Source of the DNA: Saprospirales bacterium
Lineage (GTDB): Bacteria > Bacteroidota > Bacteroidia > Chitinophagales > Saprospiraceae
Assembly: GCA_003448025.1 (NCBI GenBank)
Contig: DLXL01000578.1
Span: 3,463-16,040 of the forward strand
DNA length: 12,578 nucleotides
Reading direction: 5' to 3'
Part shown: positions 214-9,847 of the stretch, piece by piece
Numbering within the stretch: the stretch's first letter is position 1
Layout: each line of letters begins with the position of its first letter
The notes under the pieces: generated by a model
What the model was told of the DNA's origin: nothing
The model's input: only the letters and a program-made list of their open reading frames with translations
Database searches by the model: none
Position numbers and translations under genes: made by a program

Positions 214-3000
214 ATGAAAACAATCTTATGCTTATCCGTGATAACGCTGCTATCCCTTCAGTCGCAGGCTCAGGTAGCAGATTCCATGTCTGTAGCCAGA
301 CAAATCGACAGCATCATCCAGGTTTCTCGTGCCCTCACAGGTAAAAGAGATTTTGAAAAGGCCCTTGAACTCAATGCCATAGCCGAAAAGATTACCCTAA
401 GTAACTTTGATCGGGTATCGGTGGCCTATGGCAGTGTTTGTTTCAACTATGGACGTATATATCATAATACAGGAGACTATCAAAATGCAGAAAAATGGTA
501 TCTCGAAGCTAAGGACATAAGGTCTCGGGTACTAAAGGGTGGCAGTAAGCATCCCGATTATGGATGGTGCCTAAATAATCTGGCGATTTTATACAAGAAC
601 ATGGGTCACTACGAGAAAGCTGAACCACTCTATCTCGAAGCCATAGATTGCAGATCTCATGCCCTTGGGAAGGAGCATCCTGATTATGCTTCGAGTCTGA
701 ATAACCTGGCGGCCTTTTACTGGGACATGGGCAGCTATGAAAAAGCCCAACCCCTTTACCTCGAAGCCAAAAACATTCGGTATAGAGCACTGGGTGAAGA
801 ACATCCAGACTATGCATCCAGCCTGAATAACCTTGCGGAGTGTTACCACCGAACTGGCGATTTAGAGAAAGCCGAGCAGTACTTCCTCGAAGCTAAAGAT
901 ATCCGGTTACGCGTTCAGGGGAAAGAACATCCCGCCTATGCAGCAAGTTTGAATAATCTGGCAAATTTATATTGGGACCTTGGGAGTTATGAAAAAGCCG
1001 AATCACTCTATCTCGAAGCCAAAGACATACGGTTAAAAGCATTGGGAAATTGGAATCCCGATTACGCAGCGAGCCTGAATAAACTGGCTGAGTGTTACCA
1101 GCTTAAAGGCAACTATGAAATGGCCGAACCACTCTATCGTGAGGCGAAAGAAATTCGGGAAAAGATGTTAGGGAAGGAACATCCTTTGTATGCCCTAAGC
1201 CTACTTAATTTAGCCAGACTTTACCAGATAACAGGACGAATCCCGGAATCTTCCAGTTTGTTTCTGGAGTTATGCAAGCTCAATCGACTGCTTGTGGAAC
1301 GATCTGTTTCTTTCGCATCAGAAAATCAAATCATTGCCTATCTGAAGACCTTTAATACCTCTCTGGCGCAATTTCAGTCCTTTACGCAGCAATACCCCAA
1401 TTCGGAGCTGTTACAAGAAAGCTACAATAACGCCTTGTTTTTCAATGGCCTGACCCTGGAGAACAATCGGCTGCTTTCCAGGGCTGTTGGGCAAGCCGAC
1501 AGCCTTACGCGCCAGATTTACGAAAAGTGGCTGGGCTGTAACCGCCGCCTGGCCAAACGATACGCCCGCCCTGTTGAAGAAAACAAGAAAATAGCCGAGG
1601 TGGAAGCTGAAGCCGAAGGCTATGAAAAACTGATTATGCGCAGCCTGCCCGCCTTGCAGCAGGCGCGCAAAGTCCCTGCGTGGCAGGATGTGCGTAACCA
1701 TTTGAAACCAGGGGAGGCAGCGGTGGAGTTTTTACACTATCCATTCCTTGATCCCCAAAATCCGGACAGTGCTGCCTCTCTGATATACACCGCTCTGATC
1801 ATCCGCCCCGGCTGGGAGGCGCCAAAACAGGTGTTACTTTTTGAAGAAAAACAACTCGATTCTCTTCTGCTGTCCCAGGGAGACCGAAAGGTGGATTATG
1901 TTGCTGCTCTTTACTCCATTAAGAACCGGGGGATTATTGTGGTGAAAAAAAAACAAAAAACCTTGTACGAATTGATCTGGAAGCCGATAGAAAAGGAAAT
2001 GGAGGGGGTAACAACTACATATTTCTCCCCCAGAGGCCTGCTGCACCGGATTAATCTGGCGGCCATTCCCCTGCCCCCCGATGAGAGAGGACACGAGGGG
2101 ATGGATTCCACCCTGGCCGACAAGTATCACCTCATCGAATTGGGTAGTACCAGACAATTGATTATGCATGGCCAGTCCAGTTTCACCGGTAATGAAGCGA
2201 TTCTATTTGGCGGCATACGGTTTGATATGGACTCCACGGCTATTTTTGCGGCTAATGACAGCCTAGCAGACCTGGCCAGCCGGGGGCCAGTGGAGGAGGT
2301 AGATTTCGGTACATCCTCCACCGGAGAGCAATGGAACTACCTGAAATGGACCGAAAAGGAAGTCAAGACCCTTGCGCAGATCATGAGTGCGGCGGGATTC
2401 TCATCTGAGTCGCGAACCAGCTTTAATGCTACTGAAGAAGCTTTCAAATGGATTGGAGCAAAAGGGAACTCTCCCAGAATCCTCCACATAGCTACCCACG
2501 GTTTTTTTTCCCCTGATCCCAAAACTATGGGCAAAAAGCAGATGGAACTGGGAAGTGAAGTGGGTTTCAAAGCCAGCGACAACCCGCTGATCCGCTCCGG
2601 GTTACTCCTGGCTGGCGCCAATCATGCCTGGAAGACCGGCAAACCCTTTAAAAAAGGTATGGAAAACGGCATCCTCACAGCCTTCGAGATTAGCCATTTG
2701 AACCTGTCTAACACGGAACTGGTAGTACTCTCTGCCTGCGAAACCGGCTTGGGCGACATCCAGGGCAACGAAGGCGCGTACGGGTTGCAAAGGGCGTTTA
2801 AAATAGCAGGAGCCAAATACCTGATCATGAGTCTTTGGCAGGTGCCGGATTTTCAGACCCAGGAGTTGATGACCACCTTCTATACCAAATGGCTGGAGGA
2901 GAAAATGACGATCCCCGATGCTTTTCGTTTGGCCCAGCAAGAGATGCGGGAGAAGTATGAGAATCCGTATTTCTGGGCAGGGTTTGTGTTGGTGGAGTGA
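214..3000 (+). CDS. Exported TPR-CHAT domain protein (putative clan CD cysteine protease)
   Basis: The 928-residue product starts with a Sec signal peptide (Lys2, hydrophobic 4-15, likely cleavage Ala19/Gln20). Residues about 74-355 hold seven kinesin-light-chain-type TPR units with NLA motifs at about 79, 123, 165, 207, 249, 291 and 333, an almost exact 42-residue period. A helical linker follows, then a CHAT domain from about residue 600 to the end: LYELIWKPIE, SPRGLL, IATHGFF with His762, LSACETGLG with Cys842, and the family-typical ending YFWAGFVLVE. The His/Cys dyad is intact, so protease activity is plausible. CHAT is a caspase-related fold, best known from TPR-CHAT (Csx29) of type III-E CRISPR, but no cas gene is present and the signal peptide implies a periplasmic or surface location. 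Substrate unknown. The ATG at 214 is chosen because it begins the signal peptide; AAAGG abuts it too closely to be a normal ribosome site. Convergent with the caspase gene. Confidence 0.93.
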   Translation: MKTILCLSVITLLSLQSQAQVADSMSVARQIDSIIQVSRALTGKRDFEKALELNAIAEKITLSNFDRVSVAYGSVCFNYGRIYHNTGDYQNAEKWYLEAKDIRSRVLKGGSKHPDYGWCLNNLAILYKNMGHYEKAEPLYLEAIDCRSHALGKEHPDYASSLNNLAAFYWDMGSYEKAQPLYLEAKNIRYRALGEEHPDYASSLNNLAECYHRTGDLEKAEQYFLEAKDIRLRVQGKEHPAYAASLNNLANLYWDLGSYEKAESLYLEAKDIRLKALGNWNPDYAASLNKLAECYQLKGNYEMAEPLYREAKEIREKMLGKEHPLYALSLLNLARLYQITGRIPESSSLFLELCKLNRLLVERSVSFASENQIIAYLKTFNTSLAQFQSFTQQYPNSELLQESYNNALFFNGLTLENNRLLSRAVGQADSLTRQIYEKWLGCNRRLAKRYARPVEENKKIAEVEAEAEGYEKLIMRSLPALQQARKVPAWQDVRNHLKPGEAAVEFLHYPFLDPQNPDSAASLIYTALIIRPGWEAPKQVLLFEEKQLDSLLLSQGDRKVDYVAALYSIKNRGIIVVKKKQKTLYELIWKPIEKEMEGVTTTYFSPRGLLHRINLAAIPLPPDERGHEGMDSTLADKYHLIELGSTRQLIMHGQSSFTGNEAILFGGIRFDMDSTAIFAANDSLADLASRGPVEEVDFGTSSTGEQWNYLKWTEKEVKTLAQIMSAAGFSSESRTSFNATEEAFKWIGAKGNSPRILHIATHGFFSPDPKTMGKKQMELGSEVGFKASDNPLIRSGLLLAGANHAWKTGKPFKKGMENGILTAFEISHLNLSNTELVVLSACETGLGDIQGNEGAYGLQRAFKIAGAKYLIMSLWQVPDFQTQELMTTFYTKWLEEKMTIPDAFRLAQQEMREKYENPYFWAGFVLVE
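433..1278 (+). repeat. 126-bp tandem repeats encoding 42-residue TPR units
   Basis: Seven in-frame units lie inside the TPR-CHAT gene. Six are spaced exactly 42 codons apart; the gap between units one and two is two codons longer. DNA similarity is strong: a TAT/TAC-CTCGAAGC segment encoding YLEA recurs in most units, as do AATAA(C/T)CTGGC segments encoding NNLA. Shared codons point to fairly recent unit duplication or homogenisation rather than old divergence. Confidence 0.85.
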
Positions 3001-3365: not shown

Positions 3366-6152
3366 TCAGGGCCTATCCGGAAAGTACTTTTTCATCAACA
3401 CTTTCCACTCCAGCGTAACACGCAACGGAGCAAGGTCCTGGTCTGCCTCCAACTGTTCGAAAGTGCTTCCCTTACCGATGGCCTGCTCCACGTAGCCGAG
3501 GGCCTCGGCGGTTTTGCCTTCGGAAAAAAGGAGGTAGGCCATACCGAGCATCGCATTCGCATAGTCGGGGTTGAGTACGATCGCTTTGAGGAAGTTTTGC
3601 CGCGCCTCTTCGGGGTGATTGATTTTAAAATAGGCCATTCCGAGGTGTCTGCGGGGGTTCGCAAACATGGAATCGAGTGAAATAGCCTTTTTTAATACCG
3701 GTATTGCTTCCGTATAACGTTGGATTTGAAGGTATATAAAACCGAGGTTATTCCAGACCATTGATTGCGTTGAATCAATCGAAATGACTTTTTTAAAAGC
3801 AGTCTCCGCTTCGCCGTAACGTCGGGTTTGTATGTAATTCATACCTAAACCTACCCAGGGAGCGAAATTGGTGGAATCAAAAACTATAACTTTTTTAAAA
3901 ATCGGTTCCGCTTCAGCAAAACGGCGGGTATTGTTGTACAGCCACCCCAGGTTATTCCAGTGTGCCATGAAGGTCGAATCGATGGAAATGGCTTTTTTAA
4001 AATGATATTCTGCTTCAGCATATCGACCGATTGCCTGGTAAACCTTGCCGAGGTTGTCCCAGGCATAGTGTTGCGTTGAATCCAGTTCAATCACTTTTTT
4101 CAGCGCTTGTTCCGCTTCATTAAATCGGTTGGTATGGAAGTAAAAATAGCCGAGCAGGTTCCAGGTAGCTGCGAACGTAGCATCAAGTGAAATAGCTTTT
4201 TTAAAGGCATGTTCCGCTTCTTTAAAGCGGTTAGTATCGTCGAACAGTCCACCCAGGTTGCTCCAGGCTGCGATATCTGTAGAATCCATTGCAATGGCTT
4301 TTTTAAACATGGCCTCTGCTTCTTCATAGCGGCCGGTTAAGTTGTACATATAGCCGAGGTTATTCCAGATTGTTGCATTTGTAGCATCCAGTGCAATGGC
4401 TTTTTTCAACTGCCATTCTGCCTCTTCGAAGTTTTTTTGACCAAAATTGAAAATAGCCCATTTATGCCATACTTCTACCGAACTGGAATCAATCCGGGTT
4501 GCCTGCTCCAAAAACCACCTGGCCCGTTCTTGTTGATTGTATTTATAGGAGAGCAGATAGGCTGCTTCTGTGCAGGGCACTGTCCAGTTCGGGTACAGTT
4601 CCAGTGCCCTTCGGGAATAGTATTCCACCGAATCGGGTTGCAGGAAATTATAACCAAATACCAGGAGCATTTGCCAGTAAACATGGGGCTGTTCAGGCTG
4701 ATAATTCAATGATTTTCGGAACAGGGTTAGCGTACGTTCGCCCAGTTCCTGATCCGGATTCCGGTTGGAATTAGCCAACAGGTACCCTTCGAAAAAATAC
4801 TTCCTCGCTATCAGGTCAGCGTACATGTAGTGCTTTTCGCCCAGTAATTCGGCTGCCCGTTCGAGGCATCTGGGGTAGGTCTTTACCTTTTCTGTGAAGA
4901 CTTTTTGCGGCATTCGTCCGCTAACAGCAGCCTGGAGGGAAATCTCCTTATCGGGTTTGAGCCATCCGTTGATGGTTTGCTGGGCATCATCCTGCAGTGC
5001 TGCGGCGTAGTTGCGCTTCATGATACCCCCCAGTGGCGCCAATGATTCCACCCCGCTGAGTTGTGTGTACAAATCATCGGCGCAGTTCCCCGCGGGTTCA
5101 AAAAAACGCTTTTCCTGAACCGCCAGTTTGAATGCCAGGTACTGTTTCCGAACCGTGGAGTCCACTTTTGCCAGTACCTCTTCTTCCAGACCCCGGCTCT
5201 CTGTGGCGGCGAAAACGGGCAGCCCGCCGGATTTGTTTTTCCTCAGGTCGGCCAGTACCGCGGCATTAACGGTGGAAAGCCGGTCGGTCTTGTTGCCGAG
5301 CAGCATAGGCACCTGGCTTTGCGGGGCGGCTTCGGCCGTCACGTGATCTTCCAGGTAGCGGTCAATTTCGCCTACGGTAACGGCGCCATCGTTGTTGCGG
5401 TCTGCCAGACCAACCAAACCTTCCACAAGGTGGTAGCTGAAAGCGCCACGCCCGCCGCCCCATTGTTCGCCCTCCAGTGAGAACTCGTTGGGCTGGCAGG
5501 AAAGGATTTTTATCTCATTGGCATACTGTTTGGCCAGGTTGGCACTGGTGAGCTGCGCTCCACCGATCTGGCTGCCCGCCAGTTTTCCGGCGTGACAGGC
5601 ATCGGTGATGACAGTGACCCTGGCCTTGTTCTGCATCGACAGGGTGGAAATAACTTCCTGCAAAAACGACAGGGAATAAGTGCCCCCGCCCATGTATACC
5701 CTTGATGGCGAGTCCCAGCAAAGCAGGAATCCCGGTTGCGAGATCTTCTTGCCTTCCACGTCGCCGTGGCCGCTGAAGTAAATGATGACCTGATCGCCCT
5801 CTTTCACCTGCTCGATCAGACCATCGAGAGCCTCGGCGATTCTGCCGGCCGTTGCCTGGCCGTTGGTAAGCACCCTGAGGTGATCGTCATCCAGCGCGCC
5901 CCCCGCCGGCGAACGCAGAAAGTTGGCGAAAGCCAGCGCATCCTTATCAGCAAAGCGCAGGTCTGGGATGGCATGGTCCTGGTAATCGGAGATGCCGACA
6001 ACTACGGCGTAGACCTCCCCCTGGCCCTCTCCTCCAGGAGGGGGAGTGGATAGGGGTGTGACGCCCTTTTCCTGGGCAAAAAGCGCAACCCAGGTCAGCA
6101 GGGCGAGGAAGGTGAAGATTGTTCTCATTGTATTAGACTTTTTTTGCTTCAA
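3366..6152 (-). CDS. Exported caspase (peptidase C14)-TPR protein, catalytic dyad intact
   Basis: The 928-residue product has a signal peptide; translation may start at 6152 or, matching its relatives better, at Met9 (6128, MRTIF). Likely cleavage is Ala26/Gln27. The caspase domain spans about 47-285: VYAVVVGISDYQ, YFSGHG with His129, VITDACHAG with Cys186, GGGRGAFSYHL of the substrate pocket, and a perfect EF-hand loop DRNNDGAVTVGE at 251-262. Such a loop is common in prokaryotic caspase homologues and suggests calcium dependence. Residues 338-460 form a helical middle region shared with the next gene. Two degenerate TPRs precede ten 34-residue TPRs starting near 562, 596 and onward to 868. 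A cap (DQDLAPL, EWKVLMKKYFPD) ends the protein. Known relatives cleave after Arg/Lys; the substrate here is unknown. It lies 60 bp downstream of the pseudo-caspase gene, probably in one transcript. Residues 31-46 look repeat-derived. Confidence 0.92.
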   Translation of the reverse strand: MKQKKSNTMRTIFTFLALLTWVALFAQEKGVTPLSTPPPGGEGQGEVYAVVVGISDYQDHAIPDLRFADKDALAFANFLRSPAGGALDDDHLRVLTNGQATAGRIAEALDGLIEQVKEGDQVIIYFSGHGDVEGKKISQPGFLLCWDSPSRVYMGGGTYSLSFLQEVISTLSMQNKARVTVITDACHAGKLAGSQIGGAQLTSANLAKQYANEIKILSCQPNEFSLEGEQWGGGRGAFSYHLVEGLVGLADRNNDGAVTVGEIDRYLEDHVTAEAAPQSQVPMLLGNKTDRLSTVNAAVLADLRKNKSGGLPVFAATESRGLEEEVLAKVDSTVRKQYLAFKLAVQEKRFFEPAGNCADDLYTQLSGVESLAPLGGIMKRNYAAALQDDAQQTINGWLKPDKEISLQAAVSGRMPQKVFTEKVKTYPRCLERAAELLGEKHYMYADLIARKYFFEGYLLANSNRNPDQELGERTLTLFRKSLNYQPEQPHVYWQMLLVFGYNFLQPDSVEYYSRRALELYPNWTVPCTEAAYLLSYKYNQQERARWFLEQATRIDSSSVEVWHKWAIFNFGQKNFEEAEWQLKKAIALDATNATIWNNLGYMYNLTGRYEEAEAMFKKAIAMDSTDIAAWSNLGGLFDDTNRFKEAEHAFKKAISLDATFAATWNLLGYFYFHTNRFNEAEQALKKVIELDSTQHYAWDNLGKVYQAIGRYAEAEYHFKKAISIDSTFMAHWNNLGWLYNNTRRFAEAEPIFKKVIVFDSTNFAPWVGLGMNYIQTRRYGEAETAFKKVISIDSTQSMVWNNLGFIYLQIQRYTEAIPVLKKAISLDSMFANPRRHLGMAYFKINHPEEARQNFLKAIVLNPDYANAMLGMAYLLFSEGKTAEALGYVEQAIGKGSTFEQLEADQDLAPLRVTLEWKVLMKKYFPDRP
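3450..4469 (-). repeat. 102-bp tandem repeats encoding ten 34-residue TPRs
   Basis: Ten in-frame units occur at exact 34-codon spacing, most opening with Trp-x-x-Leu-Gly and carrying an (A)(F/L)KK(A/V)I segment. Eight units contain an A6 run on the coding strand at the Lys-Lys codons, for example plus-strand T6 runs at 3688-3693 and 3789-3794. The short paralogue upstream has only four such units, so the array has expanded here or contracted there. Confidence 0.85.
6003..6062 (-). repeat. Repeat-like insertion in the caspase linker (TPLSTPPPGGEGQGEV)
   Basis: Between the signal peptide and the first caspase strand the coding sequence passes through a GC-rich, purine/pyrimidine-biased block with inverted arms CTCCCC (6015-6020) and GGGGAG (6041-6046) around a smaller dyad CCTCC-A-GGAGG. 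The peptide resembles the translation of a CCCCTCTCC...GGAGAGGGG repeat family that I recall as dispersed in Bacteroidota. The pseudo-caspase lacks the block: its signal peptide runs almost directly into KALVVGISQYQ. Confidence 0.55.
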
Positions 6153-6212: not shown

Positions 6213-8090
6213 TTACTCTTTCACCTTATCCGGGTAATATTTCCGCACCATAGCCTTCCACTCAGACAAGGCATGCAGGGAAACCAGGTCTTCGTCATTG
6301 TTCAGGATATCAAAATCATCCCATCCTTTTTCATGTGCCTGCAAAAGCCAGTCGATAGCCATTCCCTTTTCTGCTTTTTTAGCTTCCAGACATGCCAGAT
6401 TATAGTACACCACAGGCCTTTCGGCGCCCAACCTGACAGCGCGCCGGAACAATGTTTCCGCCTGCGCCCAATCCTTTTTCTCCGCATATACCACTCCGAG
6501 ATTGGCATATCCTCCCGGATTGTAGGGCGCATGCCTGATGGCTTCAATACCATAGTAATTGGCAGCCTGCCAGTCGCCGGCATTTAAGGCCAGGATGCTC
6601 AGATTATTGTAAGGGATACTCCAGGTGGGTGAATATTCTATGGCTTCGAGAAATTGCTTTTTAGCTTCTGCAGTGTCGTTCTTGTTGATACAAACAACTC
6701 CCAGTTCGTTGTGGATATAAGCAGCCTCTGGCTCCAGGTGGAGGGCTGCCCGTTGTTTCTCCATTGCCTCAGATAGCCAGGAACTGTCTTTTTCTGCCAG
6801 GGACCTGAGTCGCAATTCCAGGCCTTCAAAGTACAGACGTTTGGCTTCAAGGGTGTTGCTCATCATGTGTTGCTTACCCAGTAGTTCGTTTGCCTTCTGT
6901 AACTGTTGGGCGTAACGTTTGTATGGTTCGGTATACTTTTGCCTGCGGGCCAGTTCATTGGCACTGGTGTTGAGATAGGCGTTCAGGGCCTGTTGGGTAT
7001 CGTCGAGCATGGCAGCAGCCAGGCGGCGGCGCAAATAGCCGGCAATGGGTAGAAGTTCTGGAACCAGCAGAAGACTGTCGTATAAAGCTGCTGCATTTCG
7101 CTCCCGGGGTGGAAGAAAGTTTTTGACTTTGATCGCCAGGATAAAATCTTCATACAGACGCCGGGTAACAGGTGCTGATTTTTGCAGCAACCTTTCTTCT
7201 GCAGGCATGGATTCCAGTTGTACAATGGGGGGGAACAATTCGTTGTTCCCGCGCTGCTCCAGCTCATTCAGGATTCGCTCGTCAACTTTTGACAGGTTTT
7301 TTTCTTTGTCGGTTACGGACAGGTATAAGCAGGCGCCAGGGGGATAGTAAAAGGAAGATTGGTTGCTGATATGCCGGAATATCTCAGGGCCACTGACCAT
7401 CCTGTTGCCATCATAATCAGCCAACCCAAGCAGACCGGTTACCAGATCGCTCGAGATAGACTTTTGTCCTTTGGAAGAAAAGGCGGAAGACGACAAGCCG
7501 GCGTCCGGCATGGTTTGGCTCCATTTCAGCCAACTGGATCTTTTCGTTTTTCCTGTTCCTTTCCACTCAAAGCCCAGGGAGTCGCTCTTTTCGAAGGGGC
7601 TTTTGAAAGATACTGCCAGGAAAACCGGGGAGCTTAGGATTGTCTCACCTTGTTTTTCTAACCTTTTCTTTATGCCCTTCAGTGAGCAGGTATTTCCCTG
7701 AAAAGGGGTGGCAGGTGAGTCGTTGAAAAACATCAGCACATCTTCTTTTTTTTGACCAGGTGTCATGTAAAGTGCGGAACCGGCGAAATACAGCAGACGT
7801 GTGGACGGGATTGGCTTTTCCGACATCAGCCATTCAAGTCCGGCCATAAATCCTGCCAGTGTGGCCTCTTCATCGGTCAGTAACAGGATCTGGTCGCGTT
7901 CGATGCTGCCACCAGAAGGGGATTGAAGAAAGGCGGCATACTCCTCCGCATCGCGCCGGGCAGCGGAGAAAGCATGGAGAGAGGTGTCCTGATACTGACT
8001 GATCCCTACCACCAGGGCTTTTGCCGTTCTGGATTGTGCGGACGAAACACTGCTCAGAAATAATGATATGAAGAAAAAAAGTGACTTCAT
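6213..8090 (-). CDS. Exported pseudo-caspase-TPR protein (both catalytic residues replaced)
   Basis: The 625-residue product starts with a signal peptide (MKSLFFFISLFLSSVSSAQ, likely cleavage Ala18/Gln19). The caspase fold begins with KALVVGISQYQD, and the FSAARRDAEEYAAFL helix is retained. The HG motif reads YFAGSALY, with Ser105 at the His position; the DACH motif reads FLAVSFKS, with Ser161 at the Cys position and the preceding Asp replaced by Ala159. The pocket motif GGGRGAFSYHL has no equivalent. An EF-hand-like loop, DYDGNRMVSGPE at 225-236, is kept. Residues 311-426 match the middle region of the downstream gene. Four TPRs follow (key Leu 463, 497, 531, 565), then the cap DEDLVSL, EWKAMVRKYYPD. 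Peptidase activity is not expected; a scaffold, inhibitor or activator of the neighbouring active caspase is the natural inference. The frame is open over its full length, so it is not a decaying gene. Stop at 6213, 60 bp before the next gene. Confidence 0.9.
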   Translation of the reverse strand: MKSLFFFISLFLSSVSSAQSRTAKALVVGISQYQDTSLHAFSAARRDAEEYAAFLQSPSGGSIERDQILLLTDEEATLAGFMAGLEWLMSEKPIPSTRLLYFAGSALYMTPGQKKEDVLMFFNDSPATPFQGNTCSLKGIKKRLEKQGETILSSPVFLAVSFKSPFEKSDSLGFEWKGTGKTKRSSWLKWSQTMPDAGLSSSAFSSKGQKSISSDLVTGLLGLADYDGNRMVSGPEIFRHISNQSSFYYPPGACLYLSVTDKEKNLSKVDERILNELEQRGNNELFPPIVQLESMPAEERLLQKSAPVTRRLYEDFILAIKVKNFLPPRERNAAALYDSLLLVPELLPIAGYLRRRLAAAMLDDTQQALNAYLNTSANELARRQKYTEPYKRYAQQLQKANELLGKQHMMSNTLEAKRLYFEGLELRLRSLAEKDSSWLSEAMEKQRAALHLEPEAAYIHNELGVVCINKNDTAEAKKQFLEAIEYSPTWSIPYNNLSILALNAGDWQAANYYGIEAIRHAPYNPGGYANLGVVYAEKKDWAQAETLFRRAVRLGAERPVVYYNLACLEAKKAEKGMAIDWLLQAHEKGWDDFDILNNDEDLVSLHALSEWKAMVRKYYPDKVKE

Positions 8091-8210
8091 GTCATTTTTA
8101 TTTGATGAAACATGCCTTAAACATCTGAATTATTTTTAAAATATGCTGAATGCCGGTGAATTCTTCTGAAGGAGCCAATTTTGCAGGAAGTCTGATGTAT
8201 TTATAGAAAA

Positions 8211-8244
8211 TGAGCCACCCCCAACATTCATAGGGGATGGCTCA
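8211..8244 (-). terminator. Terminator hairpin after the first NTF2-like gene copy
   Basis: TGAGCCACCCC and GGGGATGGCTCA form an 11-12 bp stem with one C/A mismatch and an 11-base loop. On the minus strand it is followed by TTTTC, and on the plus strand by TGTTTT, so it may work both ways. It lies about 50 bases past the stop at 8297 and would insulate the caspase-type genes from the genes upstream. Confidence 0.7.
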
Positions 8245-8296
8245 TGTTTTCATTTAAAGACGCTTATTGAAGCGCCTGCTGTTTAGGGAATCAAGT

Positions 8297-8860
8297 TTAG
8301 TTAGGGAAATCGGTCATTTCACGAATCACCCAACCTTCAGCAGTTTTACGGAAAACGTACATGAAACGGCCAGAGCGAACCATATTGGTCACAGCGCCTT
8401 TTTCATCCATGGTGCTTACGGTGTAGCTGCCCAAAACCCGTGCGCCGTCTTCGCCGATAAGCTGAACTTCATAGCCATAAAGGTCAATGATTTCTTTGCC
8501 GGCTGCACTAAAGGCATCTTTCAGCAACTTGATAAATTCAGACTCAGGCAAAGTTCTGGAAGAACCATCAGGCTCAGAAATAACCACTGAAGCGTCAACC
8601 GTTGGTGCAACCGCAGTTGAATTTTCCGTGTTAACGGCTCTTTCATAATTGCCAATCTGAGCATCAACGGCTTGTGTAACCGTAGCAAGAGATACTGAGG
8701 AGGATGTTGTTGTGGTTGGCGTCTTGGAAACTGTGGTTTCTACAGATGAAGGCAGAATACCGGTAGAGGTAGTGCGCGTCTGAGCGGATACTGGAGTTGC
8801 CAGGATTGCGAGCAGAAAGGCAGCTGTGAGGCCAAAGCAAATTTGATTTGCGTTCTTCAT
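8297..8860 (-). CDS. Exported NTF2/SnoaL-like small protein, copy A
   Basis: The 187-residue product has a signal peptide (MKNANQ, hydrophobic 8-22, likely cleavage Ala26/Gln27), a Ser/Thr-rich linker at about 28-60, and a compact domain at about 62-187. That domain, with an opening helix (VDAQIGNYERAV), a strand-rich middle (DASVVISEPDGSSRTLPESEF) and a closing sheet (GRFMYVFRKTAEGWVIREMTDF), resembles the NTF2-like/SnoaL/DUF4440 superfamily, whose members bind small ligands or are enzymes or immunity proteins. No catalytic residues can be assigned. Its paralogue lies immediately upstream. Nearly all of the last 135 residues are identical between the two copies. The start is supported because the signal peptide begins there in both copies. 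Confidence 0.85.
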   Translation of the reverse strand: MKNANQICFGLTAAFLLAILATPVSAQTRTTSTGILPSSVETTVSKTPTTTTSSSVSLATVTQAVDAQIGNYERAVNTENSTAVAPTVDASVVISEPDGSSRTLPESEFIKLLKDAFSAAGKEIIDLYGYEVQLIGEDGARVLGSYTVSTMDEKGAVTNMVRSGRFMYVFRKTAEGWVIREMTDFPN

Positions 8861-9201: not shown

Positions 9202-9253
9202 GTAAATGAAAATCGCCCTTGCTGTGGGAATAGCAAGGGCGATTTTCATTTAC
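9202..9253. terminator. Perfect 22-bp stem-loop after copy B
   Basis: Arms 9202-9223 and 9232-9253 are exact reverse complements around an 8-base loop (GTGGGAAT). The GC-rich core CGCCCTTGC is flanked by ATTTTC/GAAAAT, so each strand carries a T-rich stretch at the end of the stem. It sits about 40 bases past the stop at 9293 and would act as a strong bidirectional terminator. It has no sequence similarity to the hairpin at the same place after copy A. Confidence 0.75.
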
Positions 9254-9292
9254 AGACGCCTCATGAAGCGCCTGTTGTCTTTGCAGTCAAGT

Positions 9293-9847
9293 TTAGTTAG
9301 GGAAATCGGTCATTTCACGAATCACCCAACCTTCAGCAGTTTTACGGAAAACGTACATGAAGCGGCCAGAGCGAACCATATTGGTCACAGCGCCTTTTTC
9401 ATCCATAGCGCTTACGGTGTAGCTGCCCAAAACCCGTGCGCCGTCTTCGCCGATAAGCTGAACTTCATAGCCATAAAGGTCAATGATTTCTTTACCGGCT
9501 GCACTAAAGGCGTCTTTCAGCAACTTGATAAATTCAGACTCAGGCAAAGTTCTGGAAGAACCATCAGGCTCAGAAATAACCACTGAAGCATCAACAGTAG
9601 GTGCCACCGCAGTTGAATTTTCCGTGTTAACGGCTCTTTCATAATTGCTGATCTGAGCATCAACAGCTTGCGTAACCGTAGCAAGAGATACTGAGGAGGA
9701 TGTTGTTGTGGTTGGCGCCTTGGAAACGGTGGTTTCTACAGATGAAGGCAGAATGCCTGTGCGATTCTGAGCCGACACTGGAGTGACGACAACTGTGAGC
9801 AGAAAGGCTGCTGTAAGGCCTAAGCAGATTTGATTTGCGTTCTTCAT
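9293..9847 (-). CDS. Exported NTF2/SnoaL-like small protein, copy B
   Basis: The 184-residue product is a close paralogue of copy A. The signal peptide is recognisable but changed (FLLTVVVTPVSAQ), the linker is three residues shorter (NRTGILP against TRTTSTGILP), and the mature domain is almost identical, with QISNYE for QIGNYE and SAMDEK for STMDEK. The differences concentrate in the exported leader and linker, so the folded domain is under constraint or has been homogenised. It is the first gene of the minus-strand series and has its own conserved upstream block and a very strong downstream hairpin, so the two copies are probably separate transcription units. Function is unknown beyond the NTF2-like resemblance. 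Confidence 0.85.
   Translation of the reverse strand: MKNANQICLGLTAAFLLTVVVTPVSAQNRTGILPSSVETTVSKAPTTTTSSSVSLATVTQAVDAQISNYERAVNTENSTAVAPTVDASVVISEPDGSSRTLPESEFIKLLKDAFSAAGKEIIDLYGYEVQLIGEDGARVLGSYTVSAMDEKGAVTNMVRSGRFMYVFRKTAEGWVIREMTDFPN

Follow-up and report, generated by a model that had tools for sequence, protein, structure and literature searches.

The stretch of DNA analyzed here (the window; 12.6 kb of contig C596 of draft genome G000, 84.5% complete) encodes a dead caspase-fold/TPR protein that belongs to an old family and is probably exported. We consider it evenly balanced whether this pseudo-caspase is a non-catalytic partner of the caspases to which its gene is linked, serving them as adaptor, scaffold or allosteric regulator. 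The core observation of the preliminary description, a 625-aa caspase-fold/TPR protein without the His/Cys pair encoded directly upstream of an intact paralogue, was confirmed. Its interpretation gained from clade-wide loss of the site, purifying selection in relatives and recurring linkage, but the Ser/Ser replacement was not conserved.

Table 1. Features of the window and of the other pseudo-caspase loci (positions without a locus name refer to the window)
Feature	Position or locus	Strand	Details
Pseudo-caspase gene	6213..8090	-	625 aa, ATG; hydrophobic N-terminus, dead caspase domain, helical middle region, TPRs
Dead caspase-fold domain	7287..8027	-	about residues 22-268; alignments and domain profile
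Codon of Ser105, catalytic-His position	7776..7778	-	three alignments; His in 1/30 rows
Codon of Ser161, no more than two residues from the catalytic-Cys position	7608..7610	-	alignment uncertain; Cys in 0/30 rows
EF-hand-type loop	7383..7418	-	residues 225-236; D-x-[DN]-x-[DN]-x-x-[ILV]-x-x-x-E in 30/30 pseudo-caspase rows
Helical middle region	6792..7283	-	about residues 270-433; AF2 helices
TPR region	6237..6782	-	about residues 437-618; Pfam TPR matches, AF2
Intact-site paralogue, caspase-middle-TPR	3366..6152	-	928 aa from TTG, likelier ATG at 6128; PF00656 58.4 bits
Catalytic His codon of the paralogue (YFSGHGD)	5766..5768	-	
Catalytic Cys codon of the paralogue (TDACHAG)	5595..5597	-	
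Terminator-like hairpin separating the pseudo-caspase gene from the SnoaL-like gene upstream of it	8210..8245	-	fold -26.5 kcal/mol, z -5.0
Linked intact-site member	window		60 bp downstream of the pseudo-caspase
Linked intact-site member	G294		at 69 bp
Linked intact-site member	G337		at 24 bp
Linked intact-site member	G428		at 68 bp
Linked intact-site member	G363		at 116 bp
Linked intact-site member	G263		at 88 bp
Linked intact-site member	G367		at 704 bp; one small gene intervening
Linked intact-site member	G041		at 705 bp; two opposite-strand ORFs intervening, one PemK/MazF-like
Linked intact-site member	G040		781 bp upstream; one gene intervening
Linked intact-site member	G413		390 bp upstream; truncated copy 12 bp downstream
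Pair of ~520-aa and caspase-DUF4384 genes	G019, G440, G294, G337, G428, G390		adjoins the pseudo-caspase gene
Pair of ~520-aa and caspase-DUF4384 genes	G367		~6 kb from the pseudo-caspase gene
~520-aa family, examples	L136 14680-16248; L138 7134-8747; L047 4787-6382; L199 7074-8639		

The pseudo-caspase ORF runs from its ATG through 625 aa with zero internal stops, and the reading frame is thus intact, as first described. A full-length 625-aa protein 99% identical to it (P0004; longest contig 32,199) was found on a different, longer contig, which disfavours an assembly error in the gene. The caspase framework and the middle and TPR regions had been reported as shared with the downstream 928-aa paralogue, and a BLASTP alignment spanned all three (25% identity, 605 columns, E 2e-44). 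A 14-sequence profile of the dead domain alone matched yeast metacaspase-1 (4f6p/4f6o) over its first 94 positions with an E value of 5e-5. By homology, through this profile match and the paralogue alignment, the protein can be assigned a p20 caspase fold. The full-length AF2 model had a pLDDT of 86.8 and a pTM of 0.82, with a low-confidence stretch at residues 196-206. Both PDB structural searches with this model gave listings full of TPR matches, which left no room for a caspase match. Standard family models hardly recognized the protein. Pfam Peptidase_C14 (PF00656) scored 13.8 bits, below the gathering cut-off of 21.4, and NCBIfam NF047832 (EACC1-associated caspase) scored 27.3 bits against a cut-off of 140. 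PF00656 at E 0.01 detected 8 of 30 family members and missed most, and the three caspase proteins submitted to PADLOC matched its caspase models weakly. The hydrophobic N-terminus suggests that the pseudo-caspase is probably exported.

The catalytic site was dismantled across the whole family. Ser105 was paired with the catalytic His in each of three alignments, as previously proposed. The proposal that Ser161 replaces the Cys held in part: no alignment placed a Cys or His there, but the exact residue depended on the alignment, the catalytic Cys of the paralogue pairing with Phe162 in one and with Lys163 in another. Because the loop of the pseudo-caspase is shorter, the Cys position can be placed only to within one or two residues. 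Among 30 aligned pseudo-caspases, the Cys column was occupied by D (9), E (6), N (6), A (4), S (3), T and I, never by Cys, and the His column by Y (10), N (6), A (4), V (3), S (2), G (2), T, Q and, in G390, one H; a Cys occurred elsewhere within residues 152-168 in three rows. Ser occupied both columns only in the window protein and P0008, which rules against Ser/Ser as a conserved signature. Judging from these alignments, the site residues drift across the family and its conserved trait is the absence of the site. A His/Cys dyad restored in relatives had been named as a finding that would count against a pseudo-caspase, and none was seen among the family members.

The remains of the substrate pocket bear on one alternative, in which the dead site still binds basic peptides as a trap or decoy and competes with the active enzyme. 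The Asp47 column, which we take to be the first pocket Asp of metacaspases, contained Asp in 24/30 rows and would favour such binding. Against it, the Asp before the Cys was lost in 30/30 rows, the Cys loop was shortened, and the paralogue stretch SCQPNE..S..E..GGGRG had no counterpart in the pseudo-caspase; the losses of this Asp and of the pocket motif had both been noted from the window gene. Conservation of both pocket Asp is a reported trait of pseudo-orthocaspases, outside their definition, and differs from the pattern found here (0/30 before the Cys and 24/30 at Asp47); in the available text of the survey of Klemencic et al. (2019), the published pseudo-orthocaspases keep both (PMC6426788). 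A substrate trap therefore appears very improbable.

An EF-hand-type loop lies within the dead caspase domain. A looser form of its pattern, with S and M also allowed at some places, was present in 30/30 pseudo-caspases and 90/92 intact-site rows. The 122 whole proteins (94,561 residues) contained 120 occurrences of this form, equal to the number of rows with the loop, and it is therefore probably absent elsewhere in these proteins. The loop segment of the dead-domain profile matched Ca-binding proteins (3akb, E 0.0018). The loop of the pseudo-caspase may thus bind Ca2+. The accessible part of the same survey reports EF-hand motifs for seven archaeal homologues (PMC6426788). A loop of this type closes the caspase domain also in the window paralogue at 3366-6152 (minus strand), and Ca2+ might control the whole group.

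The order first described, with the pseudo-caspase first and the intact paralogue next on the same strand, was correct. The gap is 60 bp to the TTG start of the paralogue and 84 bp to the ATG at 6128, the latter being the likelier true start. The paralogue is presumably catalytically active, given its intact site motifs; the caspase part of its AF2 prediction was poor. A terminator-like hairpin precedes the pair (Table 1); a terminator pattern scan, whose loop limit is 8, did not list it. The same scan listed no terminator hairpin on their strand between the two genes. A hairpin ahead of the pair and none between the genes are consistent with a single transcript. An Rfam scan of the window gave zero matches.

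Other genes of the window were recorded as well. A TPR-CHAT gene (214-3000, plus strand) is convergent to the caspase pair, and the pseudo-caspase genes of G440, G337 and G367 likewise have TPR-CHAT genes nearby. Two nearly identical SnoaL/DUF4440-like genes stand in tandem at 8297-8860 and 9293-9847 (minus strand). Matching opposite-strand ORFs (8267-8590 and 9206-9586) suggest that the likeness of these duplicates extends slightly beyond the gene ends. Elsewhere in the same genome (L048 1-6479, contig C227), another intact-site paralogue is located near a CHASE2-domain gene and genes without clear family.

The pseudo-caspase family was detected in 16 genomes of the window's family, Saprospiraceae, one copy having a stop, and also in metagenomes. 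A five-member profile search identified the full-length relatives without the dyad P0001-P0022, in which P0004 stands for the window's own cluster. In a sample of 398 Saprospiraceae genomes, 15 encoded a pseudo-caspase, to which G040 is added. These 15 genomes matched at 429 bits or more and the site was inspected in every one; weaker matches (375 bits or less) were inspected in part and those had an intact site. The order scan, covering 396 genomes, yielded seven pseudo-caspase matches. Every one belonged to the window's family, and the scores showed a gap between 719 and 506 bits. The class scan with the pseudo-caspase profile yielded one in 345 genomes at E 1e-90, the window's own. Absences of the pseudo-caspase or of its partner are uncertain, since only the three or four best candidates per genome were scored in the family, partner, order and class scans. 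No relatives were found in the viral contigs searched. Literature searches, with most subscription journals outside their scope, found no paper on this Saprospiraceae pseudo-caspase family.

Phylogenetic analysis separated the pseudo-caspases from intact-site proteins. In an unrooted IQ-TREE analysis (LG+C20), 28 pseudo-caspase and 25 intact-site rows split with 100/100 support and in 200/200 bootstrap trees, and a FastTree tree of 30 pseudo-caspase and 92 intact-site rows gave the same split. Duplicate loci (L084, L097-L100) and ORFs without both regions were left out before pseudo-caspases and intact-site ORFs were aligned. Near-identical P0001, P0002, P0004, P0005, P0018 and P0021 and two short rows were left out before the 122-row tree, and P0003, P0006 and 67 of the 92 intact-site rows, by choice, before the 53-row tree. 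The 30 rows of alignment A2 and those of the tree represent the same lineages, with G147 in neither. Intact-site ORFs covering both columns retained His and Cys. Since caspases commonly have the dyad, a single loss in the pseudo-caspase clade is the simplest reading, the root not being inferred. On these trees, the pseudo-caspases have one origin.

Loss of catalysis had been proposed to be selected rather than decay, and whole-clade loss, purifying dN/dS in measurable relatives and the recurring gene arrangement supported this. Four of 11 pseudo-caspase pairs had dS under 2, all in genus g93, and their dN/dS values were 0.168, 0.148, 0.156 and 0.143. For the caspase domain alone, the values were 0.243 and 0.157 in the two g93 pairs with finite dS, and 0.31-0.45 in near-saturated pairs. 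Five of the 11 pairs were saturated. Pairs with the window gene were saturated or nearly so (window-G294, 0.34 at dS 2.2); G040-G428 gave 0.27 at dS 2.6. The pseudo-caspases are under purifying selection, as seen in the relatives where it was measurable. In agreement with decay on the way to loss of a duplicate, the copy in G147 (L140 6290-8146, minus strand) is interrupted by a single in-frame TAA, which is either real or a sequencing error. That reading is extremely unlikely, being largely refuted by full-length copies found in 15 genomes from five genus groups, by dN/dS of 0.14-0.17 and by the second intact copy in the window's cluster (P0004).

The constraint was reversed between the dead and intact-site clades. 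Of 435 pairs of pseudo-caspases, 431 resembled each other more in the middle region than in the caspase domain (mean 43% vs 32%). Among intact-site members the caspase domain was more alike than the middle region in 4176 of 4186 pairs (56% vs 34%). The pattern was present at each tabulated divergence level, the pairs not being independent. The dead domain nevertheless remained under constraint, with G29, A48, A52, L55, A76, T77, D124, A224, D225 and E236 as invariant residues. One pair, G440-G428 (L131 12813-14729 and L136 12312-14243), was 86-92% alike in the caspase and middle regions and 62% in the TPR part, with saturated dS; the TPR part was perhaps exchanged by recombination.

Stronger constraint on the middle region is also what would be expected under the main rival to a non-catalytic partner, namely a scaffold with a caspase-independent job, in which the caspase domain is a spacer or Ca2+-binding module and the adjacency is a relic of ancient tandem duplication. 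We regard this as possible but rather unlikely. It accords with the unicellular cyanobacteria, which, as far as the accessible text of two reports goes, mostly hold the pseudo-variant only (PMC7889975, PMC6426788), so that proteins of this kind can function where no active partner exists. On the other side, pseudo-caspase rows stood apart from every intact-site row in the tree, and therefore the adjacency does not stem from recent duplication.

Genomic linkage was analyzed at 16 loci, the ten of Table 1 with a linked intact-site member and six others; six of the 16 came from one genus (g93). At the ten loci, an intact-site family member lay within 1 kb on the same strand. No such neighbour was found within 1 kb in G029 (3.8-kb contig), G170 (contig start), G019, G440, G390 and G147, and these six loci fit a scaffold acting on its own. 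In contrast to that reading, linkage recurred although the pseudo-caspases of G294, G428, G363 and G040 were 32-41% identical to the window's. In G041, a PemK/MazF-like toxin gene (L044 9263-9880) and a small neighbour separate the pseudo-caspase from the intact caspase. Adjacency is raised because the caspase genes of these genomes sit in tandem arrays. Within the arrays, the pseudo-caspase gene often headed clusters of intact-site caspase-middle-TPR genes, being first among the intact family genes in 8 of the 10 linked loci, where random order expects 3.6 (P 0.004). When an 89-aa fragment in G041 was counted, it was first in 7 of 10 (P 0.024). The array sizes behind the expected value were set by hand from inspected loci, several of which share a genus.

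Seven pseudo-caspase loci (Table 1) had, upstream on the same strand, a caspase-DUF4384 gene and a gene for a ~520-aa protein that matched no Pfam or NCBIfam model where tested. Among 65 other loci, four of them duplicates of pseudo-caspase loci (L097-L100), the DUF4384 type occurred in six and the 520-aa type in five.

Lack of co-occurrence in other genomes had been named as evidence against the pair, and co-occurrence was found. All 15 pseudo-caspase-bearing genomes fell within the 37 of 398 genomes that held a close partner homologue (E 1e-110 or lower), in addition to the linkage within 1 kb at 10/16 loci. Not one of the 15 was without a close intact-site homologue, which argues against an independent scaffold. 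The hypergeometric probability was 1.6e-17 when genomes were counted and 1e-5 when genera were (6 falling within 19 of 112); since these and the gene-order probabilities ignore relatedness, the genus figure is safer. Both scans covered the same 398 genomes, as judged from matching handles.

The reverse relationship was different. Of the 37 genomes holding a close partner homologue, 22 gave no pseudo-caspase match, and the genes beside the homologue in G332, G223 and G348 included no pseudo-caspase. The partner therefore does not need the pseudo-caspase, which again suits an independent scaffold, and the dependence looks one-way. Near relatives of the window's intact gene sat in the pseudo-caspase-linked clusters of G294, G428, G337, G363 and G040. 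Equally near homologues were present in G332, G223 and G348 (no pseudo-caspase match), G019 (other contig) and G038. We rejected the idea that the nearest relatives all lie in linked clusters: the seven best other genomes (G332, G294, G428, G223, G337, G348 and G019) comprised three linked, three without a pseudo-caspase match, and G019, where the two are on different contigs. The ten-row partner clade contained six linked rows (window, G428, G294, G337, G363 and one of G040) and four not linked (G038, two of G019 and one of G040), in a tree whose row choice favours linked loci. The pairing is recurrent, not strict.

Under our preferred reading, a non-catalytic partner, the pseudo-caspase would bind the active protein via the helical middle and TPR regions common to both. 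Its caspase fold would be kept as a structural, perhaps Ca2+-responsive module through the EF-hand-type loop, and no substrate would be held in the old active site, since that site is dismantled. In this proposed physical partnership, the pseudo-caspase may activate, restrain or recruit the linked caspases. Gene linkage would also suit a cascade, in which the active caspase cuts the pseudo-caspase and frees its TPR part as a signal, by analogy with the processing of TbMC4 by TbMC3 described in the available text of one survey (PMC6426788). The low-confidence stretch in the model could be an accessible linker for such a cut. We consider this improbable. A wider form of the partner reading, doubtful at present, is that bacteria independently evolved a dead/live caspase pair, an exported and Ca2+-responsive assembly in which the head-of-cluster pseudo-caspase would be a dedicated subunit recruiting or restraining several active caspases via the middle region.

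In eukaryotes, cFLIP-L is cytosolic, carries death-effector domains and forms a proven dimer with caspase-8. Unlike cFLIP-L, the window pseudo-caspase is TPR-based and probably exported, and its interaction is a predicted one. Coexistence with an intact paralogue, as for cFLIP, was found in 15/15 genomes. Both systems place an inactive caspase fold beside an active paralogue (PMC6426788, in the text available), with the activity of the partner predicted in our case. TbMC4 of T. brucei is likewise a pseudo-metacaspase working beside an active one, TbMC3, but is eukaryotic and processed by its partner, according to the portion of the survey at hand (PMC6426788).

Among bacteria, the pseudo-orthocaspases are the closest comparison. 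The accessible text of Klemencic et al. (2019) gives 862 sequences, 8.6% of bacterial homologues, concentrated in Alphaproteobacteria and Cyanobacteria, with 10 of 1078 in Bacteroidetes (PMC6426788). The window protein lacks the catalytic His/Cys dyad, an absence by which pseudo-orthocaspases are defined. It resembles them in a p20-type caspase fold without the dyad, and Alphaproteobacterial FS types also carry TPRs, as the available text states (PMC6426788). It differs from them, for which the same text gives two retained pocket Asp, in that the family lost the pre-Cys Asp, shows no constant pair of replacements and largely escapes PF00656 (PMC6426788). In the same available text, the authors judge prokaryotic pseudo-orthocaspases most likely not regulators of active ones, which speaks against a partner role (PMC6426788). 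SyOC of Synechocystis is also a dead bacterial caspase homologue, whose deletion alters oxidative-stress tolerance; unlike this family it is cyanobacterial, and most unicellular cyanobacteria have the pseudo-variant only, in the sections available (PMC7889975). A 2012 survey reports, in its accessible part, 28 metacaspases in Haliscomenobacter, like the window's a Bacteroidota genome with many caspase genes, and lists Bacteroidetes among groups with operons holding more than one (PMC3501461). Its model was built from dyad-bearing sequences and others were discarded, as stated there (PMC3501461), unlike the dyad-less family described here.

Bacterial pseudo-caspases as such are already known, as the available survey text makes clear (PMC6426788); what is new is a genetically linked variant. 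Families of this kind can escape surveys that depend on PF00656 or the dyad. This one is often linked to intact caspases and was never found without them among the sampled genomes, and its constraint has shifted to the shared helical region, which makes the question of regulation directly testable. If the partner reading is true, the family would be an independent bacterial parallel to the eukaryotic pseudo-caspase partnership, and broken caspases may serve as partners of active ones in bacteria too.
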